Part shown: positions 21,488-27,798 of the stretch, in pieces
Numbering within the stretch: the stretch's first letter is position 1
How the letters are laid out: every line of letters starts with the position of its first letter
NCBI GenBank assembly: GCA_037482015.1
Contig: JBBFKT010000001.1
Coordinates: 840,584 to 904,583 of the forward strand
Reading direction: 5' to 3'
DNA length: 64,000 nucleotides
Origin: Thermodesulforhabdaceae bacterium
Lineage (GTDB): Bacteria > Desulfobacterota > Syntrophobacteria > Syntrophobacterales > Thermodesulforhabdaceae
Made by a program: the position numbers and the translations under genes
Notes under the pieces: model-generated
The model's database searches: none
Seen by the model: the letters and a program-made list of their open reading frames with translations, nothing else
Told to the model about the DNA's origin: nothing

Positions 21488-21530
21488 AAAACCTGGGGGA
21501 AAACTTGATCCCGCCAGGTTTTGGCTTTTT
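21488..21530 (+). terminator. Terminator of the glutarate/decarboxylase operon
   Basis: A perfect 9-bp stem, AAAACCTGG (21488-21496) with CCAGGTTTT (21514-21522), is followed by GGCTTTTT. It runs into the last codon of the convergent archaemetzincin gene. Confidence 0.8.
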
Positions 21531-22093
21531 CAGATACTCTTTTCCGCTAGTCGAACAAATCGTCTGAGAAGAAATAAACATCGATCACAAAACAAGATTG
21601 GAAGTCTATCAAGCATATCAAGGCGGGAACTGAATTTCATCAAGCAGTTTTCGTCGTCACAATGGTAAAGCGAAAAAACGTGACCTGTCTCATGGAGAAC
21701 CACCTTGACTATTCGTTCGTAAAATACATTTTCAGGCACGGCTTCCCCTATCTCGCCTCTGTGGAGTCTTGCTGTAGAGACTATGGCTGTTTTGCCTCCT
21801 AGTTGAGCTTCGCCAAAGACATAGGTGAACACTGGGATGCATATATCAACGCTGGTGATACCCACAATACAGGCATGATTTGATGATACACTCTCAAGCG
21901 CTTTCAGGATAATTCCTGCATCGTATTGTCGGCGGTCCAACAAAAAACTTTCTTCAGGAATTTCAATCTTCCCGATAATATCAACGGGAACGTCAAGCAC
22001 TCCCTGAATAGAAGCCGAAACAACTTTTGGAATAAGAGTTCCCAGCTTGCCGACGCTAACTATACCAATGATTACGGGTCGCTTTGTGATCAT
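21530..22093 (-). CDS. amzA: Archaemetzincin-family zinc metalloprotease
   Basis: This 187-residue protein has the archaemetzincin double-metal signature: HETGHVFSLYHC, then DDENCLM, then CDRC near the C-terminus, i.e. HExxH..H plus a four-cysteine structural zinc site. The metzincin glycine of HExxHxxGxxH is serine here. The N-terminal half (GIVSVGKL, IEIPEESFLLDRRQYDAGIIL) is typical of the family. It is a putative peptidase of unknown substrate. Its start is one base after the sigma-54 activator stop, so it belongs to the kinase-regulator operon. Confidence 0.85.
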   Translation of the reverse strand: MITKRPVIIGIVSVGKLGTLIPKVVSASIQGVLDVPVDIIGKIEIPEESFLLDRRQYDAGIILKALESVSSNHACIVGITSVDICIPVFTYVFGEAQLGGKTAIVSTARLHRGEIGEAVPENVFYERIVKVVLHETGHVFSLYHCDDENCLMKFSSRLDMLDRLPILFCDRCLFLLRRFVRLAEKSI

Positions 22094-22094
22094 T

Positions 22095-23456
22095 TTACTC
22101 TGTGCGACTGGAGGGAGAGAGTTGATACTTCTTTATCTTGGCATGGAGAGTCGTGCGGTTTACGCCGAGAATTTTGGCTGCCCGGCTTATATTCCAGTCG
22201 GTTTCCTGAAGAATTTTCTCAATGTGGTGACGTTCGACCTCTTCTAGAGATTTGGGTTCTTCTGATACATCGTAGATTGGTTTATGGCGCATGAGGAAGG
22301 CGAAGTCTTCTTTGGTAAGCACTCTGGATTTGGCAAGCACTACGGCTCGTTCTACAGCATTTTCTAATTCCCGGACATTACCGGGCCATTCGTAAGATCC
22401 GAGAAGATTTAGAGCGTCCTTGGATATTGTGGTAACGAGCTTGTTGGTTTCTCGCCGGAATTTCTGTAAGAAGTGCTGAGCAAGAAGAGGAATGTCTTCT
22501 TTCCTTTCCCTAAGAGGTGGCACTGGGATTTCGATGACGTTTATACGAAAGTAAAAATCTTTGCGGAACCGTCCCTGGCGAATTTCTTCTTCGAGATCTT
22601 TATGCGTAGCGGAAATAAACCTGAAATCCACGGGTATATATTCGCGTCCACCCACCCGCTGAAAACGTTTTTCTTCGAGGACGCGGAGAAGATCAACCTG
22701 CATTTTGAGAGGAATTTCGCCTATCTCATCAAGAAATAAAGTTCCACCGTGAGCTATTTCTAAGCGACCTTTACGAGCTTTGATAGCTCCAGTAAATGCA
22801 CCTGCTTCGTGTCCGAATAGCTCAGTTTCCAGCAAGCTTTCAGGAAAGGCACCGCAATTTATAGCGATAAAAGGCCCAAAGCGTCTGGAACTCTTTGCGT
22901 GAATAGCTTTTGCTATGAGTTCTTTACCCGTGCCAGTTTCTCCTCGAATTAGAACAGGTGAATCAACAGTTGCCACTTCTTCTATCATTTCAAAAAGTTT
23001 CTGCATGCAGGGTGCTGCTCCAACCAGTTCTTGGTAACGGGTGCGTTTGGATACCTGTTCTTTAAGAAAAATATTTTCGTCTATAAGCTTTTTCTGCTGG
23101 AGTAGTTTTTCAACAAGAAGAACGAGGTGTTCGGGTTCAAAAGGCTTCATTAGATAGTCGCTTGCCCCGAGTTTCATGGCTTCCACAGCGTTTTCAACAG
23201 ATCCGTAAGCGGTAATCATTACAACTAGAGTGTTAGGGTAAAGTTCTTTCAGGCTTTTCAGCACGTCTATGCCGCTCATGTCGGGCATTTTGATATCGAG
23301 GAAAACAAGGTCGTAATCTTTTTCCTTCAAGCGTTTTAGGGCTTCCGTCCCGGTTGATGCCGAATCCACATCATAACCGCCCTTTCGGAGCCATCCTATT
23401 AGAGATTCCCGCACAATCAGTTCGTCATCAACGACTAGGATACGAATGTGGGCCAT
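22095..23456 (-). CDS. NtrC-family sigma-54-dependent response regulator
   Basis: This 453-residue protein has a receiver domain (phospho-acceptor Asp in LVFLDIKMPDMSG), a AAA+ domain with Walker A GETGTGKE, the sigma-54-contacting GAFTGA loop, the Walker B LFLDEIGEI region and the R-finger region, and a C-terminal Fis-type helix-turn-helix (IEKILQETDWNISRAAKILGVNRTTLHAKIKKY). It opens sigma-54 promoters after phosphorylation. The kinase gene lies 12 nt upstream. The divergent sigma-54 promoter at 25244-25259 with an upstream inverted repeat is its obvious target. Confidence 0.95.
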   Translation of the reverse strand: MAHIRILVVDDELIVRESLIGWLRKGGYDVDSASTGTEALKRLKEKDYDLVFLDIKMPDMSGIDVLKSLKELYPNTLVVMITAYGSVENAVEAMKLGASDYLMKPFEPEHLVLLVEKLLQQKKLIDENIFLKEQVSKRTRYQELVGAAPCMQKLFEMIEEVATVDSPVLIRGETGTGKELIAKAIHAKSSRRFGPFIAINCGAFPESLLETELFGHEAGAFTGAIKARKGRLEIAHGGTLFLDEIGEIPLKMQVDLLRVLEEKRFQRVGGREYIPVDFRFISATHKDLEEEIRQGRFRKDFYFRINVIEIPVPPLRERKEDIPLLAQHFLQKFRRETNKLVTTISKDALNLLGSYEWPGNVRELENAVERAVVLAKSRVLTKEDFAFLMRHKPIYDVSEEPKSLEEVERHHIEKILQETDWNISRAAKILGVNRTTLHAKIKKYQLSPSSRTE

Positions 23457-23468
23457 GAATATTTCTCC

Positions 23469-25094
23469 TTAGCTAATAAGGTCGTCCACTTTAGGTTCAG
23501 CACAGGGTAGCCGCACAATGAAATCTGAACCCTTCCCGGGTTCGCTTACAACATAAATGCTTCCTTTGTGCTCCTTAATGATTCCGTAAACCACCGAAAG
23601 ACCAAGCCCTACACCTTTTTCCTTGCCTTTTGTGGAAAAAAACGGCTCGAAAATCTGCGAGATAAGTTCTTTTGGGATTCCTACGCCGGTATCAATAACG
23701 TCAATACGTATCTGATTTCTCGAACTCTCATAAGCACTTCTTATGGTTAGAGTTCCGCCGTTGGGCATAGCTTCGACGGCGTTAAAGACGAGATTTATAA
23801 GGCATTGCTGGATTTGTCCTGGGTCGCCGTAAACCTGGGGAAGGCTATCTGCAAGGTCGGTTACAATGTTTATTTGCTGTAAGTCCATTTTGTGTTTGCT
23901 AAGAAGTATTACCCGCTGGATGAGTTCATTTACGTCGAAGTAGCGGCGTTCCATCTTTTGCTGGCGGGCGAAGGAGAGAAGGTTACTTACTATGTTACTG
24001 CAGCGAGCCGATTCCTGATCTATAAGCTGGAGATAATATAAAAATTGCTGGCGTTCGGCATCGTCAAGGGGTGTGGAATCTTCAAAACGGTTTTTCATGA
24101 GTCGAGCAAGAGCATGAATGCCGGAAAGAGGATTGTTAATTTCATGAACCGCACTTGCGACGAGCTTTCCAAGAGCGATCATCTTATCTTCGTGGATAAG
24201 CCGAGCAAGGTCTTTTTTAAATGCTCTTGTCTTCTGTTCGACCTTTTTTTCTAATTCATCCGTAATATCTCTGACAATTTCCAGAACTGCTTCGACATTT
24301 CCCTTGGGATTCTTCAATGGAACCGTGCTGATTTCGCAATATCTTACAACGTTATTTCGATCCACATGTTCATGAATAGCATGTCCGGTTCCACCTGTTT
24401 CTATGCATTCCTTCAAAGGACAGTGGACGCCGTGGGCGTTGCAAGGTTCGGCAAAGCGGTGAGTGATCTGATAGCAGGGTTTTCCAATGACGTCTTCTTT
24501 TCTCATACCAAGCCATTCCAGAAGAGCGTCATTTACATCGAGAACCTTCATGTCAGGTTGCATAATCATTACCCGGTCTCGTATGCTTGAGAAAATCGTT
24601 TCCACGATACTCTCTATAAGTGCCAGTTGTCGCTCTCTAAAAAGCCGTTCTTCCTGGAGTTGTATCAGATCTATAAAAAGGCGAGATATGGTTGTTCCAA
24701 GGACTTTTACGGTCGGATGTCCTCCGTTGGCAAACTCTTTAAGAAGTTCTTCCCGACCTGTTAAATCTATAACCAGATCAAGTTCCGGGACCCCGTAAAG
24801 TTCCTTTGGATCCCCTAGAGTAGGGATATTTTTTTCTTTGGCGAGTTGCACTCCCACGGCTTGGTCGTTAGGATCAACCACAGCAACGATTTCGGCATTA
24901 AGCCATGGAAACCTTTCTGCATCTATCATCTCGAGTAGTGATCTACAACGCCTTCCACCCCCGATGATGGCAATTCTCATCGGCTTTTTGTTATTTTCCC
25001 CTTCGTTCCGAATCAATCTTTGTTGATCTGGCTGTGATGATGCAGGAAGGATTTTTTCTGATCTTTTTTTGGAACTACTTTTAGCCCGTCCCAT
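23469..25094 (-). CDS. Histidine kinase with N-terminal Rossmann-like and cysteine-rich PAS domains
   Basis: This 541-residue cytosolic kinase begins with about 40 basic residues. A dinucleotide-binding-like domain follows (MRIAIIGGGRRCRSLLEMID..EIVAVVDPNDQAVGVQLAKEKNIPTLGD..DLVIDLTG). Next comes a PAS domain with CYQITHRFAEPCNAHGVHCPLKEC, HisKA with His317 in SAVHEINNPLSG, and an intact HATPase_c (NLVFNAVEAMPNGG, DTGVGIP, GVGLGLSVV). No membrane segment is present. The open frame extends upstream to 25694 but that part runs antisense to the next operon; ATG 25094 is preferred, with 25145 and 24980 as alternatives. It probably senses a soluble cue, perhaps redox or a nucleotide. Confidence 0.85.
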   Translation of the reverse strand: MGRAKSSSKKRSEKILPASSQPDQQRLIRNEGENNKKPMRIAIIGGGRRCRSLLEMIDAERFPWLNAEIVAVVDPNDQAVGVQLAKEKNIPTLGDPKELYGVPELDLVIDLTGREELLKEFANGGHPTVKVLGTTISRLFIDLIQLQEERLFRERQLALIESIVETIFSSIRDRVMIMQPDMKVLDVNDALLEWLGMRKEDVIGKPCYQITHRFAEPCNAHGVHCPLKECIETGGTGHAIHEHVDRNNVVRYCEISTVPLKNPKGNVEAVLEIVRDITDELEKKVEQKTRAFKKDLARLIHEDKMIALGKLVASAVHEINNPLSGIHALARLMKNRFEDSTPLDDAERQQFLYYLQLIDQESARCSNIVSNLLSFARQQKMERRYFDVNELIQRVILLSKHKMDLQQINIVTDLADSLPQVYGDPGQIQQCLINLVFNAVEAMPNGGTLTIRSAYESSRNQIRIDVIDTGVGIPKELISQIFEPFFSTKGKEKGVGLGLSVVYGIIKEHKGSIYVVSEPGKGSDFIVRLPCAEPKVDDLIS

Positions 25095-25125: not shown

Positions 25126-25152
25126 CAGAGTGAAGCAATTTCCATCACTCTG
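25126..25152. promoter_or_regulatory. Candidate enhancer (UAS) for the NtrC-type activator
   Basis: A perfect inverted repeat CAGAGTGA (25126-25133) - 11 nt - TCACTCTG (25145-25152) is centred about 130 bp upstream of the predicted sigma-54 transcription start. That is a usual enhancer distance. Confidence 0.6.
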
Positions 25153-25243
25153 TATAAAAATTCAACACTTTTTAAGGCTCTTTTGTCAACTTTGAATTTG
25201 GGTTTTCCCTGTAAATACTTGGTTTTGACGGACTTAACTTTTG

Positions 25244-25259
25244 TGGCACTGATATTGCT
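25244..25259 (+). promoter_or_regulatory. Sigma-54 promoter of the GcvH-like/hdrCBA operon
   Basis: TGGCAC-N5-TTGCT matches the sigma-54 -24/-12 consensus, with GG at 25245-25246 and GC at 25257-25258, 12 nt apart. Transcription should start near 25270, giving a 26-nt leader to the ATG at 25296. Confidence 0.85.
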
Positions 25260-25295: not shown

Positions 25296-26198
25296 ATGAA
25301 GCCCAAAAAAAGAACCAGGCAGGTGGTGTTTGGCATCCAGGAACAGCAATGCATCTGGATGAAGGCAGGGGTTGTTAACTTTAAGCTCTGCCAAAATGCT
25401 TATGATTGCACAACCTGTTCCTTTGATAAAGCCATGCAGAAAGCTATTCGCGAAGGAGATGCTCTTGAAAGCTGGCGCGAAGAAATGTTGCGGAATGCGC
25501 CAGAAAAGCTCTGTCGCTATGCGATTAGCGGGAATGTTGGTGCGAGGGTCTGCAGTTATGCCTATGAATGTTCCAGATGCGAGTTTGATCAAGAAATGTA
25601 TGAACGTCAGCTTACAGAGTTTCCTGGTGTGGTAAAAATTCTTATGGTGGGAGGCTTTGGGTTGGCTGTGGACTATTTTTATCATCCAGGTCATAGCTGG
25701 GCTAGAATGGAATATGGTGGGTTGGTGAGAGTAGGAATGGACGACTTTGCCTGGCGCTTGATGGGTTTCCTCGATGAGATACGTTTACCAGAAATTGGAA
25801 TGCAGATAACGGCTTCTAATAAAGGATGGGTGGTCAGGCGGGAAGAAAAAATTTCGCCGATTCTTTCGCCTGTAAGTGGAACTGTGGTTGCCCGTAATTA
25901 TAAGACGATCCTTGATCCTGATCGAGCCAAAGATGATCCTTATGGTGAAGGTTGGCTTCTTATGGTTGAGCCAGACGATCTTCGGTTGATCCCGGAGTCT
26001 TTGCTGTATCGAGAAGATGCAGAAAGCTGGTTAAAGGCAGAAGTTAGAGAACTGGATGCGATCGCTGAAGAACTCTACGGTATGGCTCTTGCCGCAACTG
26101 GTGGTGAAAGACCTGATGATATCTACGGCAATTTAAAATCTGTGGGTTGGGATCGGCTGATTGAAAAATTCTTGATACGCAAAAAAGGTATATTATAA
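25296..26198 (+). CDS. GcvH-like protein with two N-terminal four-cysteine repeats, in an Hdr operon
   Basis: This 300-residue protein has two exact C-x12-C-x5-C-x2-C repeats (Cys19/32/38/41 and Cys73/86/92/95). A glycine-cleavage-H-like domain follows (about 118-240: YHPGHSWARMEYGGLVRVGMDDFAWRLMG..ILSPVSGTVVARN..DPYGEGWLLMVEP). Where GcvH has its lipoyl lysine, eight residues before PVSG, this protein has Glu184, with Lys185 one place off, so normal lipoylation is doubtful. GcvH-like proteins occur beside hdr genes in several sulfur-metabolising bacteria. Here it may be an electron-transfer or scaffold partner of HdrABC (inference). The start is ATG 25296, after GGGGGGA. Confidence 0.75.
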   Translation: MKPKKRTRQVVFGIQEQQCIWMKAGVVNFKLCQNAYDCTTCSFDKAMQKAIREGDALESWREEMLRNAPEKLCRYAISGNVGARVCSYAYECSRCEFDQEMYERQLTEFPGVVKILMVGGFGLAVDYFYHPGHSWARMEYGGLVRVGMDDFAWRLMGFLDEIRLPEIGMQITASNKGWVVRREEKISPILSPVSGTVVARNYKTILDPDRAKDDPYGEGWLLMVEPDDLRLIPESLLYREDAESWLKAEVRELDAIAEELYGMALAATGGERPDDIYGNLKSVGWDRLIEKFLIRKKGIL

Positions 26199-26286
26199 TG
26201 TTGAATATATGAAACTAGCTTGGGAAAGCTGGAACTAAAAAATGTTGATGCAAGTCATGATGATATTAGGAGGGGTGGTAAAAATT

Positions 26287-26325
26287 ATGCGCGCTATTAT
26301 GGGTCTTAGGAGGGATTTATCATGA
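26287..26325 (+). CDS. Possible 12-codon upstream ORF before hdrC
   Basis: An ATG at 26287, preceded at 13 nt by AGGAGG, opens MRAIMGLRRDLS and stops at TGA inside ATGATG of the hdrC start. It spans the hdrC ribosome-binding site (26308-26313). It could couple or meter hdrC translation, or be chance. Confidence 0.25.
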   Translation: MRAIMGLRRDLS

Positions 26326-26918
26326 TGGAAGATAGATTCGAACAGGTGCAAGAGGAAGCTCCAAAGGAGATTAATTTCCTTCTAGCAGAAGAAATTACCA
26401 GAGAAACGGGTAATCCTGTGTTGTCCTGTTTTCAATGTAGGAAGTGCACTAACGGTTGCCCTTTGACTTTTGCGATGGATTATTATCCAGATCAGATTAT
26501 AAGGCTTATAATACTTGGGCAAGAGGATGAGGCTCTAAAAAGCCGCACTATCTGGGTTTGTTCTTCCTGCGAAACCTGCACAACCAGATGTCCGAATGGA
26601 ATAGATATTGCCGGAGTAATGGATTATCTTAAACAAAAAGCTCATAAGAAAGGTCTGGTAAACTATAAAAACAACCCCAGTTATGCTTTCCAGAAAGTTT
26701 TTCTCGAAAATATTTTTAAAACCGGGAGAGTTCACGAGCCGAAGATTCTTACTGATTATCTATTGAAATCCGGAGCATGGAAGCAAAAACTAGAAAATGG
26801 ATCGATATGGCGCGATATAAAATTGGGACTGTTTCTTTTGAAAAATCGCAGAATGAGATTGTTTCCACCTCGAGTTCATACTAATGGACACGGGCTTCCT
26901 GAGTCTAAAATGAACTAA
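26322..26918 (+). CDS. hdrC: Heterodisulfide reductase subunit C-like iron-sulfur protein
   Basis: This 198-residue protein carries two [4Fe-4S] ferredoxin motifs, CFQCRKCTNGCPL and CSSCETCTTRCPNG, in the HdrC layout, followed by NNPSYAFQKVFLENIFKTGRVHEP, typical of HdrC. HdrC passes electrons between HdrA and HdrB. Start: AGGAGG stands 8 nt before ATG 26322. The next gene, hdrB, begins 19 nt after its stop. Confidence 0.92.
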   Translation: MMEDRFEQVQEEAPKEINFLLAEEITRETGNPVLSCFQCRKCTNGCPLTFAMDYYPDQIIRLIILGQEDEALKSRTIWVCSSCETCTTRCPNGIDIAGVMDYLKQKAHKKGLVNYKNNPSYAFQKVFLENIFKTGRVHEPKILTDYLLKSGAWKQKLENGSIWRDIKLGLFLLKNRRMRLFPPRVHTNGHGLPESKMN

Positions 26919-26937: not shown

Positions 26938-27798
26938 ATGGTTCAGGTTACGCTTTACCCAGGTTGTTCTCTCGAAGGGACGGCTAAGGATTATCGTGAT
27001 TCCCTTGAAGTTGCCTGCTCACGTCTTGGGGTTGAACTTATTGAACTTGACGGTTGGACCTGTTGTGGGGCTACGGCAGCTCACAGTTTAGACGAACTTA
27101 TTGCTCTTGAACTTCCTTCGAGAAACCTTGTGATTGCAGAGGAAAAAGGACTTGATATAGTTGTCCCCTGTGCCCTCTGCTTTAATCGACTTAAAAACGC
27201 AGAAAAACACCTTCTTCAAAATACCCATCCAGAACTCACTCAAAAATATCCTTTTCGCGGCACCGTTAAAATCTACGATCTTCTTTTCTATCTGACGACT
27301 CCTGAGATGCTCGATAAAATTTCCGATCTTATTAAAAAACCTCTCGAAGGATTAAAACTCGTCTCATATTACGGCTGTATGGTAAATCGTCCTCCAAGAA
27401 TCACGGACGCCAAAAATTATGAAAATCCCACTCAGATGGATAAGTTGGTGGAAGTTCTTGGAGCAACATCGATTGATTGGCCCTTTAAGACCGATTGTTG
27501 CGGAGCAGGACATACGGTTGCTCGACCAGATCTTGTTTTTGCCCTTGTAAAGCGCCTTTACGATAGAGCCCTTGCCCTGGGCGCAAATGGTATAGTGGTT
27601 TCATGTCAGATGTGCCACGCTAATCTCGATATGTATCAGGATCAGATTTCAGAGCATTTCGGGGAACGTTATCAGATTCCAATCTTTTATTTCACCGAAC
27701 TTATAAATCTAGCTTTAGGAGATGAACGTCAGGTTAGCTGGCTTTCTCGCCACGTGGTTGATCCCGTGCCAACCCTTAGAGAATGTGGTCTGCTGTAA
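26938..27798 (+). CDS. hdrB: Heterodisulfide reductase subunit B-like protein
   Basis: This 286-residue protein has the two cysteine-rich CCG domains: YPGCSL..WTCCGATAAHS..CALCFNRL, and YYGCMVNRPP..KTDCCGAGH..VSCQMCHANLD. In methanogen HdrB these cysteines bind the two non-cubane [4Fe-4S] clusters where disulfide reduction occurs. Organisms of this kind lack CoM/CoB, so the physiological disulfide or other acceptor is unknown. A terminator-like hairpin follows before hdrA. Confidence 0.93.
   Translation: MVQVTLYPGCSLEGTAKDYRDSLEVACSRLGVELIELDGWTCCGATAAHSLDELIALELPSRNLVIAEEKGLDIVVPCALCFNRLKNAEKHLLQNTHPELTQKYPFRGTVKIYDLLFYLTTPEMLDKISDLIKKPLEGLKLVSYYGCMVNRPPRITDAKNYENPTQMDKLVEVLGATSIDWPFKTDCCGAGHTVARPDLVFALVKRLYDRALALGANGIVVSCQMCHANLDMYQDQISEHFGERYQIPIFYFTELINLALGDERQVSWLSRHVVDPVPTLRECGLL

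Follow-up and report, generated by a model that had tools for sequence, protein, structure and literature searches.

A candidate sigma-54 circuit linking a divergent two-component system to the gcvH-hdrCBA operon of a Thermodesulforhabdaceae bacterium

In a Thermodesulforhabdaceae bacterium, an operon for a GcvH-like protein and Hdr subunits lies back to back with the genes of a two-component system, which raises the question of whether the latter controls the former and through which DNA elements. We analyzed this locus within a stretch of 64,000 nt (referred to as the window) and compared it with the corresponding loci of relatives. The features identified are collected in Table 1.

Table 1 Features of the gcvH-hdrCBA locus, with positions given in the window.
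Feature	Position	Strand	Remarks
Archaemetzincin-type zinc peptidase (M54)	21530..22093	-	third gene of the regulator operon
NtrC-type response regulator	22095..23456	-	receiver, sigma-54 AAA+, Fis-type HTH
Sensor histidine kinase, 541 aa	23469..25094	-	predicted Rossmann (GGGxxC), PAS, HisKA, HATPase
8-bp inverted repeat CAGAGTGA (25126-25133)-N11-TCACTCTG (25145-25152)	25126..25152	.	present; overlap with the operator probably fortuitous
Operator half 1 TGAAGCAATTTCCATCA, proposed NtrC-type regulator site	25131..25147	.	palindromic EM, tandem scan, cross-family test
Operator half 2 TGTATAAAAATTCAACA, proposed	25151..25167	.	same basis as half 1; block kept in same-genus relative
Sigma-54 (-24/-12) promoter TGGCACtgataTTGCT (TGGCACTGATATTGCT)	25244..25259	+	exact consensus, position conserved
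GcvH-like protein, 300 aa	25296..26198	+	Cys-rich N-terminal half (8 Cys) plus GcvH fold
HdrC-like iron-sulfur subunit	26322..26918	+	
HdrB-like subunit	26938..27798	+	two CCG domains
Large HdrA, 1494 aa	27891..32375	+	inserted GltD-type NAD(P)H/flavin module, HdrL-like

Genes on the two sides of the intergenic region

The kinase, regulator, and peptidase genes are tightly spaced on the minus strand. The receiver, sigma-54 AAA+, and Fis-type HTH domains of the regulator, with the kinase gene adjacent, are those of an NtrC-type two-component system, and a hydropathy scan found no membrane segment in the kinase (maximum over 19 residues, 1.12). The divergent soluble kinase and NtrC-type activator named in the first-pass annotation of this DNA are thus borne out by their domains, by the lack of a membrane segment, and by the conserved arrangement. 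The archaemetzincin gene, missed there, is by gene order a constant part of the cassette. Its product scores 143.3 against an NCBIfam cut-off of 145 and lies above the cut-off of Pfam M54. The HExxHx5HC and structural CxxC zinc ligands are kept in all aligned members, and the Gly of the HExxHxxGxxHC motif is Ser in the window protein. The peptidase gene is single-copy, and most related loci have it alongside the two-component system.

The sensor half of the kinase offers hints to its signal. Fold searches were swamped by PAS domains and barely probed the Rossmann half, for which a profile search was used. The N-terminus matches the profile of an acetaldehyde dehydrogenase (1nvm_B, E 5e-5); GFO_IDH_MocA is below cut-off in the window protein and is found with E values up to 0.1 in 20 of 25 members, and the GGGxxC loop is present in the loci of the order. 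The N-terminal domain, which resembles NAD-binding Rossmann families, is predicted to be of the NAD type. The PAS domain carries C-x4-H-x5-C-x6-C and HEH motifs, which almost every aligned member of the order retains and which possibly form a metal or thiol redox site. Together, the Rossmann and Cys/His PAS domains make a redox or NAD(H) signal likely, and the switching by a cytosolic signal put forward in the first-pass annotation would follow from this domain architecture. A similar Cys-rich PAS recurs in longer kinases of Desulfobacca-type loci.

On the other side, the GcvH fold of the first plus-strand product is supported by PF01597 (E 1e-17) and by Foldseek (TMt 0.89 to 1onl_A). The lipoyl lysine is absent: Glu occupies that column in the window protein, and the column is not Lys across the family, with the f1 and f2 proteins (two families of the order) having a Lys one residue further on. 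By this test, the protein is GcvH-like and no lipoate carrier. Its Cys-rich half is conserved over the order, and the structure model of that half is of low confidence. No MvhD domain is listed among the proteins of the operon. The genome contains dsrA, which marks the organism as of the sulfate-reducer type.

Promoter and tandem palindromes upstream of gcvH

Sigma-54 promoters follow the consensus TGGCAC-N5-TTGCW, in which the -24 GG and the -12 GC are separated by 10 bp. Upstream of gcvH, TGGCAC (25244-25249) and TTGCT (25255-25259) stand in the correct register, with GG at 25245-25246 and GC at 25257-25258, and form the only zero-mismatch match in the window. The promoter of the first-pass annotation is thus right in sequence and spacing. 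The distance of 26 nt given there fits the predicted leader only if transcription starts at about 25270, where we indeed predict the +1, and 36 nt separate the end of the site itself from the ATG at 25296. Eight exact matches occur in the 2.7-Mb genome, against one for a reversed control pattern, and the best score of the intergenic region is equalled by 0.3% of dinucleotide shuffles. The remaining exact matches include sites before a putative flagellin, a flagellar cap protein, and other genes (translations judged by eye), as expected of a working sigma-54 consensus. RpoN is encoded in the genome (Sigma54_DBD E 2.7e-65), as are about 21 sigma-54 activators.

The site is conserved in position: among 20 orthologous loci of the order, 19 have their best sigma-54-like match 53-161 nt before the gcvH start, and the exception (L138) has a near-equal site about as far away. 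The sites are exact in L124 and L126, deviate by one mismatch in L127, L129, L130, L133, L135, and L136, and are weak in L132, L134, L137, L138, and L140. At the level of the phylum, GcvH-like homologues were found in 68 of 395 genomes, many of them preceded by sigma-54-like sites. A functionless chance match might be suspected given the shortness of the consensus and the single genomic match of the reversed pattern, yet the constancy of position among the orthologous loci leaves that explanation hardly any credit.

The enhancer was a different matter. The first-pass annotation had placed it in the 8-bp inverted repeat, whose arms are present and perfect and whose distance from the promoter is plausible. 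However, an equally long repeat appears in 101 of 1000 dinucleotide shuffles of the intergenic region, and the left arm is lost in the same-genus relative and in the other relatives examined. A genome search allowing three mismatches returned 82 matches per strand, compared with 74 for the control, which are chance numbers. An enhancer function of this repeat is very improbable, and we rejected it on the strength of the shuffles and the non-conservation. The conserved element, at 25131-25167, overlaps the repeat partly and in a different register.

Phylogenetic footprinting resolved this element into two 17-bp imperfect palindromes, TGTnG-N7-CnACA, placed 20 bp apart, i.e., two helical turns. 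A palindromic EM search of the f1 and f2 upstream regions produced the 17-mer TGTnn-(A/T)7-nnACA with a score of 68, against 21-24 for shuffles, and tandem copies were then seen by inspection. A matrix built from seven loci found tandem copies in the held-out loci L128, L129, L130, L132, and L136. The fair test is the cross-family one, because the matrix rows were picked after the alignment had been seen: when training is restricted to f1, or to a single f2 genus, the resulting matrices recover the tandem copies of the other group at dinucleotide-shuffle p values of 0-0.0025 (at most 1 in 400 as good), and a model that had seen only another family finds the sites of the window about 5 sd over shuffles. 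Across the 1.58 Mb of fetched locus DNA, the top tandem matches lie upstream of gcvH, including new ones in L119, L120, and L131, and versions spaced by 21 or 24 bp occur in L142, L021, L028, and L029. Relatives across the phylum carry the same or single palindrome copies upstream of sigma-54-gcvH/hdr promoters. The genome of the window holds one exact and one two-mismatch match to the tandem pattern, and the control holds none.

NtrC-type regulators usually bind upstream at dyad-symmetric sites paired on one face of the DNA, which the two palindromes match at the sequence level. The center of the element is about 96 bp from the GG of the -24 element, and 37 bp separate the element from the start of the kinase operon. 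The tandem palindromes appear to be the better enhancer candidate.

Target and binder of the operator

Families f1 and f2 retain the same gene order, with archaemetzincin-regulator-kinase transcribed away from [sigma-54]-gcvH-hdrC-hdrB-hdrA. In family f3 and Desulfobacca-type genomes, the regulator cassette stays with the gcvH-like genes, often together with the sigma-54 site, and hdrCBA is not alongside; some of these loci have a separate gcvH-hdrA operon. From this comparison, the conserved target would be the gcvH-like gene, joined by hdrCBA only in some families, a point that the first-pass annotation missed. One may then ask whether the circuit controls gcvH, with its Cys-rich domain, and not Hdr, the hdrCBA genes being transcribed largely from an internal sigma-70 promoter. 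In addition to the f3 and Desulfobacca-type arrangement, a gap of 123 nt between gcvH and hdrC and an 11/12 sigma-70-like match at the end of gcvH (TTGATA-16-TATAAT, 26172-26199) speak for this, and the match could start hdrCBA separately, so that hdrCBA might depend incompletely on sigma-54. Nevertheless, sigma-70-like matches in the region are no more numerous than chance, and hdrC follows gcvH by only 9-30 nt in L125, L126, and L127, where the genes look co-transcribed. We consider control of gcvH without Hdr unlikely, while granting it a real share of probability. The counts of intrinsic terminators and of extra promoters within the operon are near chance. A 12-codon ORF, MRAIMGLRRDLS, lies at 26287-26325 with a good ribosome site, and its stop overlaps the hdrC start as ATGA; a translational coupling to hdrC is possible.

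Concerning the binder, the position of the element is ambiguous in divergent loci, where it hugs the kinase start (about 13-95 bp from the start of kinase homology, even with gcvH more than 400 bp off) and overlaps the promoter region of that operon. The palindromes could thus mainly autoregulate the kinase-regulator-peptidase operon, with another enhancer-binding protein activating the gcvH sigma-54 promoter, and the number of activators in the genome means that another could act there. The loci L028, L029, and L142 argue against this: their regulator operon is co-directional and upstream, but the element still adjoins the gcvH sigma-54 site, 227-404 bp before gcvH, and no top match is found before the kinase. 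Moreover, single palindromes in L032 and L035 sit before gcvH-hdrA operons. In part of f3, the recognition helix of the regulator reads SRVTLH or SRITLH in place of NRTTLH, and the operator of these loci reads TGTnnAnnnnCTTAACA. The co-directional loci and this joint change of helix and operator point to the regulator of the cassette as the binder and to gcvH as its target, and leave the autoregulatory explanation improbable. Upstream of gcvH in L138-L141, an operator variant with a CTTAACA half is accompanied by an altered HTH recognition helix in the regulator.

Proposed circuit and related systems

The preferred explanation, which we hold with high confidence on the basis of sequence comparison, is a dedicated kinase/NtrC-sigma-54 switch of gcvH-hdrCBA acting via the tandem palindromes. 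RNA polymerase with sigma-54 would transcribe gcvH-hdrCBA from the promoter at 25244-25259, which would be opened by the divergently encoded regulator (22095-23456) once phosphorylated by the cytosolic kinase (23469-25094). The regulator would bind as two dimers, one at each palindrome (25131-25147 and 25151-25167), and reach the polymerase by DNA looping; it may also adjust its own operon nearby. The kinase probably reads the cytosolic redox state through its presumed NAD-type Rossmann and Cys/His PAS domains. From the sequence elements and their conservation, we infer binding, activation, and signal, and we regard the circuit as probably real, with an ordinary mechanism. The single occurrence of the tandem site in the genome suggests a circuit that serves this operon only, in keeping with the "self-contained" circuit of the first-pass annotation. 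Its idea of two-component control of gcvH-hdr through sigma-54 agrees with the conserved gene order, promoter, and operator; the enhancer it named was wrong.

Several known systems resemble parts of this locus. In Desulfovibrio vulgaris, the response regulator DVU2394 controls the adh-hdr operon DVU2405-2397 (PMC3333781) and is termed sigma 54-dependent (PMC8319347), so that, in the passages drawn on here, a sigma-54-type response regulator again governs an hdr-containing operon in a sulfate reducer. As described in these passages, its target includes an alcohol dehydrogenase, its site is a direct repeat in contrast to the tandem palindromes of the window, and GcvH-like and archaemetzincin genes are not mentioned (PMC3333781, PMC8319347). 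DVU3142, predicted by comparative genomics and a conserved upstream site to regulate the divergent ohc electron-transport operon (PMC4641369), likewise pairs a sigma-54 activator with a divergent electron-transfer operon and was approached in the same way, but regulator, redox complex, and operator differ. HdrL, an HdrA/glutamate-synthase fusion encoded in Desulfobacterium autotrophicum (PMC2702500), resembles the large HdrA with its NAD(P)H-binding insert; it pairs with MvhD, whereas the HdrA of the window is encoded with HdrC, HdrB, and the GcvH-like protein. The LbpA proteins of the sulfur-oxidising Hdr pathway (PMC6067878) are also GcvH-fold proteins encoded with Hdr-like genes. LbpA binds lipoate, unlike the window protein with its Glu and Cys-rich domain. 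In the open-licence literature, we found no description of archaemetzincin or GcvH-like genes in connection with sigma-54 or Hdr regulation in the phylum, nor of the cassette.

The new part is the composition and breadth of the cassette and the corrected operator. A regulon of energy metabolism that recurs in sulfate-reducing and syntrophic lineages thereby gains a concrete promoter and operator. As a more speculative extension, which we consider less likely than not, the cassette may be a redox signalling module found throughout the Desulfobacterota. Its soluble kinase would sense the NAD(H) pool (Rossmann plus metal/thiol PAS) and, together with the NtrC-type regulator and the zinc peptidase, would adjust GcvH-like proteins that lack lipoate as well as NAD(P)H-linked Hdr complexes; the peptidase would act on GcvH-like proteins, Hdr proteins, or regulators. 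The timing at which Hdr-type electron transfer is switched on becomes directly testable, and the motif can be used to find the regulon in cultured relatives. In L028 (5708-8792) and L029 (4967-8103), four tandem GcvH-like paralogues stand behind one sigma-54-like site and palindromes.
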